Below, in pieces: positions 10,996 to 26,354 of a stretch of 34,309 nucleotides of DNA. Under the pieces are notes generated by a model. It did no database searches, was not told the origin of the DNA, and worked only from the letters and a program-made list of their open reading frames with translations. The first letter of the stretch is position 1. Each line of letters opens with the position of its first letter. Origin of the DNA: an uncultured Porphyromonadaceae bacterium (GTDB taxonomy: Bacteria; Bacteroidota; Bacteroidia; Bacteroidales; Muribaculaceae); assembly GCA_947176295.1 (NCBI GenBank), contig CAMWQB010000017.1, positions 1 to 34,309 on the forward strand, given 5' to 3'. A program made the position numbers and the translations under genes.

Positions 10996-11712
10996 CTATG
11001 GCTTTATCAGTCGGTATTCACCGGACTGGTTGACGATGTAGCCAAGAATGCTGAAGATGCGTCGGATGTCCTGAAATGACACTTCGAAGGGTTCATATAT
11101 AAGACGTCCGTCGGGATAGGTTTCCTGGTTAGTGGAGTATAGGGCGATGGTATCAGAAGTGCGGCCTAACTGCACTCGCTTGGTTACTCGATACTCCGAG
11201 GTTTCTATAACGTAATTGCGTCCGGGCACAAGTAGGCGACGCTCCGTTACTTCACGCACTGCGAGGACACATCCATTCGGATATTCTATCATAGAATCTC
11301 CTACATGACGGATGGCTGCAGTTTCATGTCCATCAAACCATCCCCCGGGCTGTATATAGCCAACAATCTCTCCCGGGACATTTGACGATGAAACCTGACT
11401 GTTATATCCACCTGTTGTCTCAACATCATAGAATGGAATGGCACGGCGCGGTTTTTCCGCATCTTGATCGATCAACGAAGATGATGATTCATTCATGAAA
11501 GAATCTTTCAACATTTCTCCTTCTCCAGTTAAGAGCCACTCAATGTTCAGATCGCTTTGTAATTCGAGCTTGCCTAAAGTTTGTTGAGATGTACCTGAAC
11601 CTATACGAGATAGAATACTTTTGTCTATCCCGCATTTTTCAGCAAACCTACTCAAACTTAGTCGTTTGCTTTTAAGATACAAGCTAAATCTTTTCTTTAC
11701 GTCTTCGCTCAT
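10996..11712 (-). CDS. Phage repressor: HTH plus S24 (LexA-like) self-cleavage domain
   Basis: 238 aa. An N-terminal helix-turn-helix of XRE type (about residues 5-65, KSKRLSLSRFAEKCGIDKS) should bind operators in the adjoining switch. The C-terminal S24 peptidase domain has Ser140 in VGDSM and Lys178 in RVTKR, the Ser/Lys dyad used for RecA-stimulated autocleavage in LexA and CI-type repressors. I see no canonical Ala-Gly cleavage site in the linker; a Gly-Gly near 101-102 is the nearest candidate. It is divergent from the Cro-like gene, from which it is separated by a palindromic promoter region, and heads the leftward lysogeny operon. SOS-inducible lysogeny is the natural reading. Confidence 0.88.
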   Translation of the reverse strand: MSEDVKKRFSLYLKSKRLSLSRFAEKCGIDKSILSRIGSGTSQQTLGKLELQSDLNIEWLLTGEGEMLKDSFMNESSSSLIDQDAEKPRRAIPFYDVETTGGYNSQVSSSNVPGEIVGYIQPGGWFDGHETAAIRHVGDSMIEYPNGCVLAVREVTERRLLVPGRNYVIETSEYRVTKRVQLGRTSDTIALYSTNQETYPDGRLIYEPFEVSFQDIRRIFSILGYIVNQSGEYRLIKP

Positions 11713-11742
11713 TGATGTTAAAATGGGTTAAATTCGTTGTGA

Positions 11743-11833
11743 TTTGTTGCATATCGTTGCATTATGTCTTATCTTTGCATCACGATAGCGAAACACTATC
11801 GCAAAGATAGAAAAATATCAATAACAATACAAA
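11743..11833. promoter_or_regulatory. Lysogeny switch: two face-to-face promoters in nested palindromes
   Basis: Plus strand: -7 box TATCTTTG at 11770-11777 with a TTG at 11747-11749 (20-bp spacing). Minus strand: an identical TATCTTTG at 11809-11802 with TTTG at 11833-11830 (20-bp spacing). The two boxes are the arms of a 9-bp inverted repeat (11770-11778 / 11801-11809). Within it lies a second, 6-bp inverted repeat CGATAG (11783-11788) / CTATCG (11796-11801), a likely operator. GTTGCAT is directly repeated at 11746 and 11756, exactly 10 bp apart. The promoters point at each other, so the transcripts start within ~11 bp of overlap. Confidence 0.7.
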
Positions 11834-11838
11834 TTAAT

Positions 11839-12054
11839 ATGACACTTCTGGAACTTTACCAACAGGCAAAACAGCAGACGCGTCCCGTGGCCCCCGCCAC
11901 AGCATTCGTCCGCGAAGTGTGCGAAGTAACAAAGAAAAGCGAGATTGCCGTACGCCGTTGGCTTTCAGGCGACAGCGAGCCCGATGCACTTACGCAGAGC
12001 GTCCTCGCCGAGCATTTCGACACCACCCCCGAAGAATTATTCCCCAAAAGCTGA
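11839..12054 (+). CDS. Cro-like small DNA-binding protein, first early gene
   Basis: 71 aa from ATG 11839. The frame is open back to 11764, but that stretch is the promoter. The body has a helix-turn-helix feel: AFVREVCEVTKKSEIAVRRW with a following SGDSEPDALTQSVLAEHF, ending DTTPEELFP as XRE-like proteins often do. It is divergent from the S24 repressor and 55 nt downstream of the predicted plus transcript start, i.e. in the Cro position. Role as early-switch regulator is inferred. Confidence 0.7.
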   Translation: MTLLELYQQAKQQTRPVAPATAFVREVCEVTKKSEIAVRRWLSGDSEPDALTQSVLAEHFDTTPEELFPKS

Positions 12055-12059
12055 CCATC

Positions 12060-12290
12060 ATGACAATGCGACACACCATCATCAAAGCCCTCCTCGTGGC
12101 CCAGCTCCTTCTGGCCGCAGCCGTGATTCTCACCGGCGCCGCCTTCAGCCTCCGCTGCCTCGAGGCCGGAAATCCCTTCGCAGCCCTCTGCTTCGCCCTC
12201 ATGGCTTATATCGCCGGCTATCGCCTCCTGCTTACGGCCTCCCTCCGAGAGTGGCATACATTCAACACCTCAAAAAGGACCGCACAATGA
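12060..12290 (+). CDS. Small membrane protein, early region
   Basis: 76 aa. Two hydrophobic stretches, residues ~8-32 (IIKALLVAQLLLAAAVILTGA) and ~42-60 (ALCFALMAYIAGYRLLL), predict a two-helix inner-membrane protein. It starts 5 bp after the Cro-like stop, and its stop overlaps the next gene's ATG (ATGA), so the three genes form a coupled operon. The family is not recognised. Confidence 0.6.
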   Translation: MTMRHTIIKALLVAQLLLAAAVILTGAAFSLRCLEAGNPFAALCFALMAYIAGYRLLLTASLREWHTFNTSKRTAQ

Positions 12291-13120: not shown

Positions 13121-13201
13121 GGACGGATAGATAAACTCTCACATGGAGAGAGGCCGGCAATCGACAGCCGGTGGCCGCAGGTTCGAATCCTGTTCCGTCC
13201 T
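13121..13201 (+). tRNA. tRNA-like gene 1, isotype uncertain, 8-nt anticodon loop and odd D arm
   Basis: Acceptor stem GGACGGA (13121-13127) / TCCGTCC (13194-13200) is perfect. The T arm is GCAGG-TTCGAAT-CCTGT (13177-13193). The anticodon stem CCGGC / GCCGG (13154-13158 / 13167-13171) is perfect but closes an 8-nt loop, AATCGACA. If T at 13161 is position 33, the anticodon is CGA (Ser codon UCG), followed by C rather than a purine. The D region (13130-13153, 24 nt) lacks the usual AGCTC...GAGC; it holds a CTCTC/GAGAG hairpin instead. This is a real cloverleaf-like RNA gene, but its decoding ability is doubtful. Confidence 0.55.
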
Positions 13202-13425: not shown

Positions 13426-13502
13426 GACAGCAGTAGCTCAGATGGTAGAGCAAGCCCCCTCGCCCGGGGCCGCGCGCCGGTTCAAGTCCGGCCTGCTGTC
13501 CA
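13426..13502 (+). tRNA. tRNA-like gene 2, anticodon CGC (Ala-type), with His-like extra G-1:C73 pair
   Basis: The acceptor stem ACAGCAG / CTGCTGT is extended by an eighth pair, G13426-C13500, resembling the G-1:C73 pair of tRNA-His. T8-A9 and the D arm GCTC-AGATGGTA-GAGC are canonical. Two nucleotides (AA) instead of one separate it from the anticodon stem GCCCC/GGGGC. The 7-nt loop is CTCGCCC, with T33 and anticodon CGC (codon GCG, Ala), followed by a pyrimidine at 37. The T arm is GCCGG-TTCAAGT-CCGGC. The final CCA is incomplete (C CA). This is the most normal of the three. Confidence 0.65.
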
Positions 13503-13590: not shown

Positions 13591-13680
13591 GGAAGAATGG
13601 CGGAATCGGTAGACGCACACGGCAACACAACCCGTGGCCGCAGATGGCGGCGTAAGAGTTCAACTCTCTTTTCTTCCACA
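13591..13680 (+). tRNA. tRNA-like gene 3, class II (Leu-like) with an abnormal anticodon loop
   Basis: Acceptor GGAAGAA / TTCTTCC, discriminator A. The D arm GCG-GAATCGGTAGA-CGC matches tRNA-Leu closely. A long variable arm GCCGC-AGATG-GCGGC identifies class II. The T arm is AAGAG-TTCAACT-CTCTT. The anticodon stem CACGG/CCGTG closes a 9-nt loop CAACACAAC, or a 7-nt loop if a C-C mismatch is allowed. No T is present at any possible position 33, so no normal anticodon can be read. The body is tRNA-Leu-like but the decoding loop is not. Confidence 0.6.
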
Positions 13681-13733: not shown

Positions 13734-13784
13734 CTGCGCATGTTTAGGTATGCCCCATTCAATAACCCCAAAATAATTCAAGAC

Positions 13785-14741
13785 ATGAGCAAAGTAACAG
13801 TATCAGCGCAGCACATCGCCGATCTCAAACCCCTGAGCATCGTCAAGGACGAGCTCGTGCGCCAGCGATTCATCGACCTCTACGGTGCCCTATGGAGCGA
13901 AGACCGGGCCGAAGCCGTCTACGAGCGCGAGGCAATCCACTTCAACCGCCTCATCTCCGAAAATCAGAGCCTGCGCAACTGCACCTCCACCTCCATCTTC
14001 GTCGCCTTCATCGACCTTGCCGTCTGCGGCCTCTCCGTCGAGCCCGGCACGCGCGCCCTCGCCTATCTGCAGCCTCGCGGCTACAAGACCGGCGCAAAAG
14101 ACGAGCGAGGCAAAGACATCTACGAACAGCGATGCACCCTCACAATCTCCGGCTACGGCGAACTTATCCAGCGCACGCGCGCCGGCCAGATCCGCCACGC
14201 CGACAATCCCGTCATCGTCTACGAGGGCGACGGCTTCAGCTTCACCGACAAAGGCGGAGTGAAATCTGTAGAATATACCCTCAACCTCAACCACGACACC
14301 CGCAAGCCCATCGCTTGCTTCATGCGCATAACCCGTGCCGACGGCTCCATCGACTACGCCATTATGCTCGAAGAAGACTGGCGGCGCCTTGCAGGCTACT
14401 CCGGCAAAGCAAACAAAAAGTGGGATGAGAACGCACGCACCTATGTCGAAACACCCAACGCCCTCTACACCTCCGGCGAAGGCAACCGCATCGACAGCGG
14501 CTTCCTCATGGCGAAATGTATCAAACATGCATTCAAGACCTACCCGAAGCTCCGCATCGGTCGAGGCACAACCTACGAGTCCGACGAAGCTCCCGTCCGC
14601 GACGACGACTTCTACGGTATCGACCCCAACGACAACCCCGACCCTCAGGCCGCCGAAGAAAGCTTCGCACCCGCCCCCGACACCTCGGCCGGTGTAACCG
14701 TCGACCCCGCAGAGAACCAAACCGTCGACGACGTATTTTAA
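13785..14741 (+). CDS. recT: RecT-family single-strand DNA annealing protein
   Basis: 318 aa from ATG 13785; the frame is open to 13740. RecT anneals complementary single strands in phage recombination. Recognisable RecT features are the Asn/Cys-rich NQSLRNCTSTSIFVAFIDLA near residues 60-80, the GLSVEPGTRALAYLQPRG block, the region TISGYGELIQRTRAGQI, and the central VYEGDGFSF. The C-terminus is acidic and disordered (DDDFYGIDPNDNPDPQ ... VDDVF), as is usual for annealing proteins that contact partner proteins. A PD-(D/E)XK nuclease gene follows two genes downstream, making a RecE/RecT-type pair. The stop is immediately followed by the seven-copy repeat array. Confidence 0.88.
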   Translation: MSKVTVSAQHIADLKPLSIVKDELVRQRFIDLYGALWSEDRAEAVYEREAIHFNRLISENQSLRNCTSTSIFVAFIDLAVCGLSVEPGTRALAYLQPRGYKTGAKDERGKDIYEQRCTLTISGYGELIQRTRAGQIRHADNPVIVYEGDGFSFTDKGGVKSVEYTLNLNHDTRKPIACFMRITRADGSIDYAIMLEEDWRRLAGYSGKANKKWDENARTYVETPNALYTSGEGNRIDSGFLMAKCIKHAFKTYPKLRIGRGTTYESDEAPVRDDDFYGIDPNDNPDPQAAEESFAPAPDTSAGVTVDPAENQTVDDVF

Positions 14742-16059: not shown

Positions 16060-16722
16060 ATGACCCACAACCCCGATGCGTATTACCGGCGCGCCGAGGT
16101 CAGCAATTCCGACCTTACCGAACTGAAAAACATTCTCCACCCCCGAGCGCAATTCGGCGACAAAGAGGCTGCTTTCCGGTTCGGTAATCTCGTCGATGCC
16201 ATCATCACTGAGCCCGAGCTCGTAAACTACTACCGCCTCACCGTCGACGATGTCGCGTACACCGAGGACGAATTTTTCCAGGCCCGCGAGATGCACAAAG
16301 CCCTGCGCATGGAGGCCCGCCGCGACCCCTTCCTCGCAAAGGTGTTAGCCCTGGCCGAAACACAGTGCTGCATGGTCAATCACGGCCAGGAGTTCGAGTA
16401 CGGCGGCTTCCCTTTCCGGCTCGACACCCGATGCAAGTGGGATTGGTGGCTAAGAGCATATCATTTCGGTGGCGACCTCAAAACCACCTTCGCAAGTTCT
16501 CAGGCCGAGTTCCTCGACGCCGTCGACTTCTTCGACTGGGATCGGTCCCGCGCGTGGTACATGGATATAGCAAAGTCCAATAAGGACTTCATCTATGCCA
16601 TCAGCAAAAAGAACTTCCACATCTTCAAACTATTCATCAATCGAGGCGATGCCCTATACACTCGCGGTCGCGAGAAGTACGAGGAACTTGCATTTCAGTA
16701 TTGGTGCTTTAATCTCTATTAG
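16060..16722 (+). CDS. PD-(D/E)XK exonuclease, RecE/ExoVIII-like
   Basis: 220 aa. The catalytic region has FEYGGFPFRLDTRCKW followed by GDLKTT near residues 148-153, giving the D...(D/E)xK core (Asp and Lys of DLK) of the ExoVIII-type family; upstream Glu and His residues (HGQEFE) fit the rest of the site. N-terminal VSNSDLTELKN resembles the usual start of these nucleases. It would resect double-stranded ends to give 3' tails for RecT. It starts 3 bp after the coiled-coil gene and ends 2 bp before the SNF2 gene. Single-copy catalytic residues look intact. Confidence 0.82.
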   Translation: MTHNPDAYYRRAEVSNSDLTELKNILHPRAQFGDKEAAFRFGNLVDAIITEPELVNYYRLTVDDVAYTEDEFFQAREMHKALRMEARRDPFLAKVLALAETQCCMVNHGQEFEYGGFPFRLDTRCKWDWWLRAYHFGGDLKTTFASSQAEFLDAVDFFDWDRSRAWYMDIAKSNKDFIYAISKKNFHIFKLFINRGDALYTRGREKYEELAFQYWCFNLY

Positions 16723-23300: not shown

Positions 23301-23499
23301 ATGAATAGTAAAGTATTCTTTGACCGAGTGGCGCAACTTCGCAAATTCCAAAAAGGAATATTTTGCGACACGCAGTAAGGAAAGCCTGCGCCAGTCTATT
23401 GCACTGGAGAAAGAGATTGACGCAGAAATAGAGCGCGTGCAGGCTCTTCTCGCCCATAAACCGAATGTTCAACAACCAAATCTTTTCAGCAATGAATGA
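23301..23499 (+). pseudogene. Small helical protein gene broken by a one-base frameshift
   Basis: From ATG 23301 the frame reads MNSKVFFDRVAQLRKFQ and then stops. Shifting one base at the A run (CCAAAAAGG, about 23350) continues in a well-formed helical frame, KEYFATRSKESLRQSIALEK and LAHKPNVQQPNLFSNE, ending at 23499. With one A fewer, the whole would be a ~65-aa protein. The reconstructed stop overlaps the methyltransferase start by 8 nt, which is normal spacing for a real gene pair, so the break is recent or a sequencing error. Confidence 0.65.
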
Positions 23500-23986
23500 T
23501 GTTCTTGAGAAACCTGTTTTAGACGCTTGTTGTGGTGGTAAGATGTTCTACTTTGACAAGCATGACACAAGGGTGTTGTTCCAAGATATTAGGGAGATTG
23601 AAACAACTCTTTGCGATGGTCGTTCTTTTGTCGTAGAACCTGATATTATCGGCGATTTTACAAGTATGACTTACCCCGACAATACTTTCAGAATGGTTGT
23701 CTTTGACCCTCCACATCTCAAGTATTCGGGAAGCAAGAAAGAACTGAGCGGTTGGCAGATGACCAAATATGGTGCGCTTCTCCCCGGATGGAAGTCAATA
23801 TTGACTAAGGGATTTTCAGAATGTTTTAGAGTGCTGCGTCCCGGTGGCTTTCTTATATTCAAATGGAATGAAACCGATATCAAGGTATCTGAAATTCTAA
23901 AATTAACTCCCGAAAAGCCAATTTTCGGACACATATCCGGCAAACGCGCTAATACGCACTGGATTTGTTTTATGAAAGGAGAATAG
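23492..23986 (+). CDS. Class I SAM-dependent methyltransferase (phage type)
   Basis: 164 aa from ATG 23492. The alternative start at 23465 lies inside the upstream gene's coding end. Motif I is DACCGGKMF at ~11-19 (SAM-binding loop), the acidic turn FQDIRE follows, and the catalytic-type DPPH lies at ~72-75, with a later LRPGGFLIFKW. DPPH/DPPY loops are used by amino-methyltransferases acting on adenine or cytosine. Target specificity cannot be read from the sequence. It is one of three methyltransferase genes within 2.9 kb with no restriction enzyme, so a protective (anti-restriction) or modification role is plausible. It overlaps the frameshifted gene by 8 nt. Confidence 0.8.
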   Translation: MNDVLEKPVLDACCGGKMFYFDKHDTRVLFQDIREIETTLCDGRSFVVEPDIIGDFTSMTYPDNTFRMVVFDPPHLKYSGSKKELSGWQMTKYGALLPGWKSILTKGFSECFRVLRPGGFLIFKWNETDIKVSEILKLTPEKPIFGHISGKRANTHWICFMKGE

Positions 23987-23988
23987 TT

Positions 23989-24201
23989 ATGACAATCGCT
24001 AAACAACTCGCGCTCGTTCTTGTCAAGGAGATAATCGCCGACAAGAAGCAGAAACACATCGCGCCCGACTACGCCCTGCGTAACGAAGTCAGTATGAGGC
24101 TCGCCCAGGCCCTTGATGACTTGGTCGCTGACGGCTCACTGGTTGAGCGCAGTGCATCGGTCAATCGCCATATAGCTTACGAAATTCCTGGCCGGCATTA
24201 G
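23989..24201 (+). CDS. Small helical protein, possible winged helix
   Basis: 70 aa from ATG 23989 (3 bp after the methyltransferase stop). Helical N-terminal part (AKQLALVLVKEIIADKKQKH) followed by a basic winged-helix-like block (NEVSMRLAQALDDLVADGSLVERSAS) and a short strand (RHIAYEIPGRH). The pattern resembles small DNA-binding regulators, but no specific family is recognised. Confidence 0.5.
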   Translation: MTIAKQLALVLVKEIIADKKQKHIAPDYALRNEVSMRLAQALDDLVADGSLVERSASVNRHIAYEIPGRH

Positions 24202-24225
24202 CGTTGATTCAAGATCTCAGTACAG

Positions 24226-24732
24226 ATGAACACAACATTCCAAAGGACAGCAGCTTCTGATGAGTGGTTCACGCCCAAAGAGATTATTGAAGCATTAGGA
24301 GTTTTTGACCTTGACCCATGCGCGGCCCACGGATGGCTAACAGCCTCATCACACCTATACAAAGAAGATGACGGCCTTGCTCATAAATGGTGGGGCAGAG
24401 TCTGGCTCAATCCGCCCTATTCTCGCCGGTTAATCTCCCCATTTATCCACAAGATGGCCGAGCATGGAGATGGAATTGCTCTAATATTTAATCGGATGGA
24501 TATTACTTTATGGCATGATGTGATATTCCCGACAGCCACAGCAATGCTTGTAATGAGAGACCGCTTGAAATTTTATCGTCCGGATGGGACGCAGGGAGAA
24601 TCCGCAGGATGCGGTTCGGTGCTTGTGGCTTGGGGTGAATACAATGCAGAAGCATTGATAAATAGCAACATCCATGGGAAATTCTTTAGAATAAATCCAG
24701 ACAATACAAAAATACAACCCCACCAATCATGA
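24226..24732 (+). CDS. DNA N6-adenine methyltransferase (phage Dam-type)
   Basis: 168 aa, right for the short phage Dam family. DEWFTP (12-17), DLDPCA (28-33), and the catalytic NPPY at 62-65 (motif IV of N6-adenine methyltransferases) are all present. A GESAGCGSVLVAWG segment near 124-137 is the conserved C-terminal part. The enzyme methylates adenine in DNA using S-adenosylmethionine; the sequence target is not predictable. It starts 25 nt after the small protein and overlaps the C5 methyltransferase gene by 4 nt. Confidence 0.9.
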   Translation: MNTTFQRTAASDEWFTPKEIIEALGVFDLDPCAAHGWLTASSHLYKEDDGLAHKWWGRVWLNPPYSRRLISPFIHKMAEHGDGIALIFNRMDITLWHDVIFPTATAMLVMRDRLKFYRPDGTQGESAGCGSVLVAWGEYNAEALINSNIHGKFFRINPDNTKIQPHQS

Positions 24733-26354
24733 AACTACTTTATATCGACCTTTTCTGCGGAGCCGGAGGAACATCCACCGGCGTCAATTCAGCACGCCTT
24801 GACGGCGAACAGTGCGCCGAAGTCATTGCTTGCGTCAACCATGATGCAAATGCCATCACCTCTCACGCCGCCAACCACCCCCGGGCGCTCCACTTTACGG
24901 AAGATATACGCACGCTCGAGCTCGCTCCTCTGGTAAGCCATGTAGAACGATGCAAAGAAATGCATCCCGACGCTCTCGTTGCGTTATGGGCCTCGCTCGA
25001 ATGTACCAATTTTTCCAAGGCAAAAGGCGGAAAACCCCGTGATGCCGACAGCCGTACTCTGGCCGAGCATCTTTTTAGATACATCGAAGCATTAAATCCC
25101 GATTACATTCAGATTGAGAACGTGGAAGAATTCATGGCCTGGGGAGAAATTGACAAGAACGGCAAGCCGATTTCGAAGGATCGCGGCTCATCCTATCTGA
25201 AATGGGTGAAACATGTGGAAAAATATGGTTATCATTTCGAAAAGCGGATAATGAATGCGGCAGACTATGGGGCATATACCTCCCGCAAACGATTCTTCGG
25301 TATCTTCGCTAAGCACGGTCTCCCAATCTCATTCCCGGAACAGACACACTGCCGTAAGGGAAGCTCCGGGCTTTTCGAAGCCATGCCTAAATGGCGCCCG
25401 GTGCGGGATGTCCTCGACCTACAGGATGAAGGCCCTTCTATATTTAATCGAAAGAAACCTCTTTCAGAAAAGACCCTGGAACGCATATATGCCGGACTTA
25501 TAAAGTTCGTGGCTGGAGGCAGAAAGAATTTTCTTGTCAAATACAACTCAATGAGTCAACAAGGAAAGTATGTACCCCCATCTGTTGATGAACCCTGTCC
25601 TGTCGTGGCTACACAAGGACGCCTTGCATTGGCGTCTGTCTCTTTTTTGTCTAAACAATATAGCGGAGCTCCTTTCGACAAAAACATCTCTCTTGACGAG
25701 CCCGCAGGAACAATCACCACTATAGACCACCATGCCTTTATTTCGGTCCATTATGGTAATGGATTCAATCTTTCGATTGAAGATCCATCACCAACCCTGA
25801 CGACAAAAGATAAGCTCTCACTGGTTTCAACGCGATTCATTGACAATCAATACGGCAATGGACGTCCCACGTCCGTAGATTCTGTTTCAGGATGTATTAC
25901 AACAAATCCAAAACAGAAACTGGTTACGGTAAGACGTTCAATGAATCGATTTTTATTGAATCCTCAGTTTTCATCTGCAGGGAGTAGCATCGATAATCCG
26001 TGTTTTACTCAGATTGCACGTATGGATAAAAGGCCGCCTTTTATAGTTACGACCAAAACTGGGGAGACGATAATTGAAGTTTATGATACGGATTCTCCAA
26101 TGACCTTAAAGATAAAAGAATTTATGGCAGCCTACAACATTGAAGACATAATGATGCGTATGCTCAAGATCCTCGAACTCATACTCATTATGGGATTCCC
26201 TAAAGACTATGTCCTTGTCGGTACACAAGCCGACCAGAAGAAGTTTATCGGCAATGCCGTAGAAGTTACGATCGCTCGTGCCTGGTGCGAAGCTCTCTGC
26301 CGGGCGATAAGAACTCCGGCTCCGTCTTCGACTTCTCATAAAATCACATCATAA
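24729..26354 (+). CDS. DNA C5-cytosine methyltransferase with repeated central region
   Basis: 541 aa. Motif I FCGAGGTSTG (9-18); motif IV has ECTNFS with catalytic Cys92 (the usual Pro before the Cys is replaced by Glu, as in a known atypical group); motif VI IENV (129-132). The C-terminal motifs, with GFPKDYVLVG and KKFIGNAVEVTIARAW, are present, so the enzyme looks complete. Between them, residues ~290-445 contain four imperfect ~33-residue repeats with the pattern (K/N)Q(Y/F)..G....S(I/V)(D/E).P...(I/L)TT, occupying the target-recognition position. It is the last gene before the putative virion genes, overlaps the Dam gene by 4 nt, and no matching restriction gene is present. Confidence 0.88.
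   Translation: MKLLYIDLFCGAGGTSTGVNSARLDGEQCAEVIACVNHDANAITSHAANHPRALHFTEDIRTLELAPLVSHVERCKEMHPDALVALWASLECTNFSKAKGGKPRDADSRTLAEHLFRYIEALNPDYIQIENVEEFMAWGEIDKNGKPISKDRGSSYLKWVKHVEKYGYHFEKRIMNAADYGAYTSRKRFFGIFAKHGLPISFPEQTHCRKGSSGLFEAMPKWRPVRDVLDLQDEGPSIFNRKKPLSEKTLERIYAGLIKFVAGGRKNFLVKYNSMSQQGKYVPPSVDEPCPVVATQGRLALASVSFLSKQYSGAPFDKNISLDEPAGTITTIDHHAFISVHYGNGFNLSIEDPSPTLTTKDKLSLVSTRFIDNQYGNGRPTSVDSVSGCITTNPKQKLVTVRRSMNRFLLNPQFSSAGSSIDNPCFTQIARMDKRPPFIVTTKTGETIIEVYDTDSPMTLKIKEFMAAYNIEDIMMRMLKILELILIMGFPKDYVLVGTQADQKKFIGNAVEVTIARAWCEALCRAIRTPAPSSTSHKITS

Follow-up and report, generated by a model that had tools for sequence, protein, structure and literature searches.

Convergent, overlapping promoters occur in phage Mu, whose early and repressor promoters, Pe and PcM, are arranged like the promoter-like pair described here, with a repressor unrelated to the one at this locus. 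Lytic and lysogenic promoters also lie face to face in P2-like phages, 40–60 bp apart; in P2 and 186, repressor operators are found over the lytic promoter, with Apl or Cox bound between the start sites or over the lysogenic promoter, as described in the accessible sections of PMC7498355. The same sections place lambdoid promoters back to back, with CI and Cro using common operators. The host order of the present locus, Bacteroidales, comprises major gut bacteria, and how their temperate phages choose dormancy or lysis has received little description in the open-access papers searched; a likeness is found in RepCHP of Hankyphage, a CI-like repressor that keeps lysogeny in a Bacteroides phage (available part of PMC12135933, which gives no promoter geometry).

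The locus lies in a 34,309-nucleotide stretch of a Bacteroidales contig (the window; uncultured Porphyromonadaceae bacterium, GenBank assembly GCA_947176295.1, contig CAMWQB010000017.1). As in the lambda type, an S24-domain CI-like repressor (P0001) and a small Cro-like, putative HTH protein (P0002) are encoded by divergent genes; the promoter-like pair between them faces inward, however, and the two regulators appear, from comparison of related loci, to use separate sites. At sequence level the pair thus differs from the back-to-back promoters of the lambda type. One strict back-to-back pair was found among 82 loci with P0002 relatives, namely in the window, and is taken as spurious because its leftward box falls inside the repressor gene. 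Inward promoters are shared, at sequence level, with the P2/186 switch (pR/pL of coliphage 186), although this locus has promoters of the Bacteroidetes kind and an S24-type repressor, and, whereas Apl and Cox bind direct repeats and double as excisionases, P0002 models as a predicted XRE/Cro-type HTH protein; Cox and Apl are not among the matches listed for P0002, an absence that excludes nothing. The predicted starts in the window are ~17 bp apart, versus the 40–60 bp given for P2-like phages, a distance whose end points are unspecified in the accessible sections.

Promoter-like elements in the window

P0001 and P0002 are separated by 126 bp of intergenic DNA. The repressor gene P0001 (10996–11712, minus strand, 238 aa) matches Pfam Peptidase_S24 at 1.5e-5, with 25.1 bits against a curated cut-off of 23.3, and phrog_4, ‘transcriptional repressor’, at 5e-16; phage regulator families match its N-terminus (phrog_8 over residues 3–74, phrog_4 over residues 5–217), no Pfam HTH model matches there, and a search for PDB sequence relatives at E 0.01 returned none. 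P0002 (11839–12054, plus strand, 71 aa, ATG at 11839) is the first rightward gene. Rightward of it are genes like RecT (13740–14741, plus strand, by family matches), exonuclease VIII (16060–16722), a replisome organizer, a DnaC-like loader and methyltransferases, and this side therefore resembles a phage or prophage early lytic module, which the rightward promoter would serve.

The Bacteroidetes sigma-ABfr promoter features TAnnTTTG at −7, with the box centred at that position, and TTTG near −33 (available part of PMC7366714); both elements were found in the window on both strands at a spacing of 20. The rightward, presumed lytic promoter P+ consists of a −33 element TTG (11747–11749, plus strand) and a −7 box TATCTTTG (11770–11777, plus strand), while the leftward, presumed lysogenic promoter P− has the same box, TATCTTTG, at 11802–11809 and TTTG at 11830–11833, both on the minus strand. 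The two boxes sit in a 9-bp inverted repeat (11770–11778/11801–11809), and between the two predicted start sites, ~11781 for P+ and ~11798 for P− as judged from boxes centred at −7, lies a central palindrome, CGATAG-N7-CTATCG (11783–11801; CGATAG at 11783–11788, CTATCG at 11796–11801), that is kept in close loci having different repressors. A preliminary description of this DNA had reported an inward-facing promoter-like pair whose identical −7 boxes, on opposite strands, form the arms of a 9-bp inverted repeat and enclose the CGATAG/CTATCG palindrome; the coordinates agree, the pair lies between the CI-like and Cro-like genes and is conserved in relatives, and the two repeats are not concentric (centres 11789.5 and 11792). 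The 20-bp spacing then given for TTG/TTTG −33 elements applies to the TTG of P+ and the TTTG of P−, but the TTTG of P+ (11743–11746) stands at 23.

The window contains a single strict face-to-face pair, defined by TTG at 19–21 on both strands and boxes 30–70 bp apart; none of 1000 shuffles has one. The pattern TTTG-N19-23-TAnnTTTG gives two matches in the 34 kb, both at this site (0.28 expected; 3 of 100 shuffles reach two); two copies of TATCTTTG alone are not rare, 15 of 100 shuffles reaching that number. In the 2.23-Mb assembly a looser pattern, at short spacing only, yields ten matches, two of them here, and none of the others at that spacing carries TTG at 19–21 on both strands (contexts read by eye). 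Several other candidates were set aside: the 9-bp inverted repeat as evidence by itself, with 13 such repeats with 10–30 spacer in the window and 1–5 in each of ten shuffles; E. coli-type sigma-70 promoters near the site (one promoter-like sequence at 11500–12100, 1.2 expected); terminators in the same interval (0 versus 0.5 expected); and a known RNA family at the promoter site, Rfam at gathering scores having given two tRNAs, both elsewhere.

Conservation and spacing of the pair among relatives

Sequence comparison shows the two promoter-like elements, their inward geometry, its conservation and its spacing classes. Of 397 family genomes, 70 carry a relative of P0002 (single-protein query, E 1e-3), as do 9 of 393 drawn from the order (alignment query, E 1e-6) and, with an alignment query at a stricter E 1e-7, 1 of 395 drawn across the phylum, this being its own genome; plasmids gave none, and two phage records did, one of them Bacteroides phage Versailles, which appears among induced prophages (available part of PMC10197239). 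With the five weakest places from the family-genome search left out, 95 loci with a P0002-family match were reduced to 82 by collapsing identical upstream 250 bases, and these were scanned up to 1.5 kb upstream of the P0002 relative. An inward TAnnTTTG pair 30–70 bp apart is present in 69 of the 82 (100 shuffle rounds: mean 1.38, maximum 5), and a pair with TTG at 19–21 on both strands in 29, against 0.02 in shuffles; the paired boxes, whose loss from homologous phages that keep the proteins would have spoken against the preliminary description, are kept at most homologous loci.

At 68 of the 82 loci the pair falls into distance windows fixed after the first pair scan: class I at 37–40 bp (29 loci), class II at 58–67 bp (38 loci) and a single locus at 77 bp, counts that lean towards the hypothesis because pairs with C after the box and TTG upstream were preferred at ambiguous loci. 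The gap between the classes would amount to about two helical turns. No pair is found at class distances in the other 14 loci, seven of which have a one-mismatch pair there, five of these within 125 nt of a Cro-like gene. When the Cro proteins are clustered at 50% identity, the pair is present in at least one member of 21 of the 24 clusters; the Versailles locus has it at 40 bp, with a TTG element on one side only, and the exact class Ia core pattern has 0 matches in viral_contigs. TTG as −33 element peaks at spacing 20 on both strands, standing at 19–21 upstream of P+ in 44 of 68 loci and of P− in 37 of the 50 with enough sequence. Both boxes have the same variable nn at 15 of 68 loci, where 13.2 would be expected; the boxes thus vary independently and therefore look like a promoter consensus rather than the arms of one operator. 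An opposing ORF of 106–240 aa starts 9–114 nt left of P+ in 67 of the 68; ten diverse examples were scanned, eight of which match a Pfam HTH family at 0.01, and those of L048 and L049 are not HTH-like by eye.

The geometry tracks the Cro-like gene: among 58 distinct S24-repressor loci, a strict inward pair is found within 300 nt in 16 of 18 with P0002 and 1 of 40 without it (Fisher 3e-11, kinship ignored). Strict back-to-back pairs number 0 of 18 with P0002 and 2 of the 40 without, 19 of which show only the leftward promoter; with loose boxes 30–80 bp apart, inward pairs are present in 17 of 18 versus 3 of 40 and back-to-back pairs in 2 of 18 versus 8 of 40. The arrangement is not exclusive to P0002, since inward pairs also occur at L072 (38 bp) and L092 (99 bp), both lacking a P0002 relative. 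The spacing of L092 and that of the 77-bp locus, L046, are wider than the rest, perhaps because these loci form another spacing class or have DNA inserted between the boxes.

Proposed switch and candidate sites of its regulators

The locus is read, with a probability of roughly two in three, as the lysogeny switch of a Bacteroidales prophage, in which overlapping inward promoters would be governed by a repressor over P+ and, most likely, by the Cro-like protein between the starts. In this scheme, where the transcription starts, the protein bound at each site and the way regulation runs are inferred, P+ (−7 box at 11770) would be the lytic promoter, transcribing the Cro-like gene and the replication genes to its right, and P− (−7 box at 11802) the lysogenic one, reading leftward and reaching the repressor gene ~86 nt on. 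With predicted starts ~17 bp apart, two polymerases could not sit there together, and each would exclude the other mostly by occluding its start site. The repressor would occupy an operator specific to the phage, located over P+ between the −33 and −7 region of that promoter. From there it would shut P+, leave P− open for polymerase binding and, as an obstacle to its own transcript, hold down its own expression. Between the starts, a conserved second regulator that these phages share would bind and block P−, tipping the switch to the lytic side; the likeliest candidate is the Cro-like protein, here probably P0002.

A candidate repressor operator over P+, read by eye, is the 20-mer at 11748–11767 common to the window and L038; in L038 its distance from the −7 box is 10 bp greater, and the repressor N-terminus is 44% identical to that of P0001. 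It is no clean palindrome, the window being outside the 21 loci with a significant inverted repeat at this place. The −7 box region of P+, TATCTTTGCAT (11770–11780), is a near copy of TATCGTTGCAT (11752–11762), 18 bp upstream, and TTGCAT at 11747 occurs again at 11757 (10-bp spacing); both recurrences are possibly part of the repressor operator.

Eleven hand-picked locus pairs were compared for mosaic structure. In L041/L044 the Cro proteins agree at 97% and the boxes with the centre at 98% (shuffled 52), against 19% for the repressor N-termini and 56% for the left DNA (shuffled 55); by its sequences this is a natural immunity swap, with the change at the P+ −7 box. In L038/L103, where the change also falls at that box, the corresponding values are 88% and 82% (shuffled 50), against 22% and 57% (shuffled 50). 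In some pairs the repressor and left DNA are exchanged against a constant centre, P− and Cro. A contrary pair is L001/L036, with left DNA at 63% (shuffled 52) though the repressor N-termini agree at 19%. Among 14 close loci, hand-picked for close Cro proteins (L047, which has no pair, L048, L049 and L051–L054 being left out), the left 45 bp follow the repressor HTH (partial r 0.70, 0/10000) and not Cro (0.13, 1300/10000), while the centre follows the HTH weakly (0.18, 483/10000) and does not follow Cro (0.09, 2654/10000).

The same tests were applied to each class after near-duplicates were dropped (class I 27 to 25 loci, class II 37 to 27) and with L048 and L049 (neighbour not HTH-like), L046 (spacing 77) and L153 (no neighbour ORF) excluded. 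In class II, the left DNA follows the repressor HTH (0.26, 8/5000) and the centre follows Cro (0.32, 0/5000); the 30 bp beyond P− follow both the HTH (0.42, 0/5000) and Cro (0.27, 0/5000), a signal that has no explanation in the proposed model. Class I as a whole runs the other way, with left DNA closer to Cro (0.17, 37/5000) than to the repressor HTH (0.10, 398/5000) and the centre closer to the HTH (0.26, 6/5000) than to Cro (0.15, 205/5000); similarity of the repressors and similarity of the Cro proteins are themselves correlated in this class (0.44). Linkage to the adjacent gene confounds all of these associations and could account for part of them, because the left DNA adjoins the repressor gene and the centre adjoins cro. 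Inverted repeats exceed shuffles in two places, over P+ (21 of 63 loci, against 3.2 expected) and between the boxes (13 of 64, against 3.2 expected), with no excess upstream of P− (4 of 61 loci, 3.1 expected). A repressor operator over the lytic promoter is supported in class Ia and class II, and not in class I overall.

The preliminary description had instead placed the repressor on the central CGATAG/CTATCG palindrome, where it would cover both starts and shut both promoters. In favour of this placement, there is a genuine palindrome between the predicted starts, and the centre correlates with the repressor HTH across class I; but L041/L044 and L038/L103 keep the centre despite their different repressor HTHs, and in the 14 close loci it is the DNA over P+ that follows the HTH, a test that goes the other way across class I as a whole. 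Shutting both promoters would, moreover, silence the repressor's own gene. On these comparisons the centre is probably not where the repressor binds, and a central repressor site is regarded as unlikely. Greater doubt attaches to the idea of a single promoter, with the other box an arm of a palindromic operator that resembles one by coincidence: identical arms of one inverted repeat are indeed what the window boxes form, but across the 68 loci the nn are unmatched, and each box shows an upstream enrichment of TTG at spacing 20.

Common descent of a linked cro/P−/centre block, rather than selection of the geometry, might also account for the conservation, given that all 82 loci were chosen by a P0002-family model and that the centre, P− and cro move together in the mosaic pairs; yet the box positions and −33 spacing persist where the intervening DNA looks unrelated, and the Cro proteins of loci keeping the pair span 21 clusters at 50% identity, so this account, too, is judged quite improbable. 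Less credible still is an action of the central inverted repeat in RNA, with the same small 5′ hairpin on each transcript and complementary 5′ ends pairing as antisense: the predicted starts would make the RNAs overlap by ~18 nt over the palindrome, and inverted repeats between the boxes exceed shuffles, but the stems are of 5–8 bp and 51 of 64 loci have none above shuffles. The reading preferred remains that of inward promoters with separate sites for the two regulators.

Relation to described switches and neighbouring features

The preliminary description had named no Bacteroidetes phage switch with this geometry, and no description from a Bacteroidetes phage was found in the open-access literature searched; both geometry and logic are already known from P2-like phages (accessible sections of PMC7498355). 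For the proteins that carry it here, the order of its hosts, the pair of spacing classes and the mosaic junction, no description was found in that literature, outside which most subscription papers fall. The balance tips modestly towards an undescribed class of lysogeny switch across Bacteroidales, with inward overlapping promoters at 37–40 and 58–67 bp; a core that stays constant, made up of the Cro-like gene, the lysogenic promoter and the centre; an exchangeable immunity cassette of repressor and operator joined at the lytic −7 box; and the P2/186 logic reached independently with XRE-type proteins. Such a class would be a second case, with other proteins, of inward promoters combined with separate operators for two regulators. 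The layout gives base-level predictions for any lysogen carrying a P0002 relative, and from the mosaic pairs it is predicted that the DNA over the lytic promoter would indicate the immunity group.

In the Versailles record (L098, 3258–3764), the gene after the Cro-like one is annotated as an RNA polymerase sigma factor. Within the early phage region of the window are tRNA-like genes at 13121–13201, 13427–13501 and 13591–13679, called by ARAGORN as tRNA-Ala(cgc) at 13427 and tRNA-Val(cac) at 13591, and by Rfam as tRNAs at 13121 and 13427. Further into the phage region, at 23465–26354, there are three neighbouring DNA methyltransferase-like genes (phrog_954, phrog_111 and a C5 methylase).
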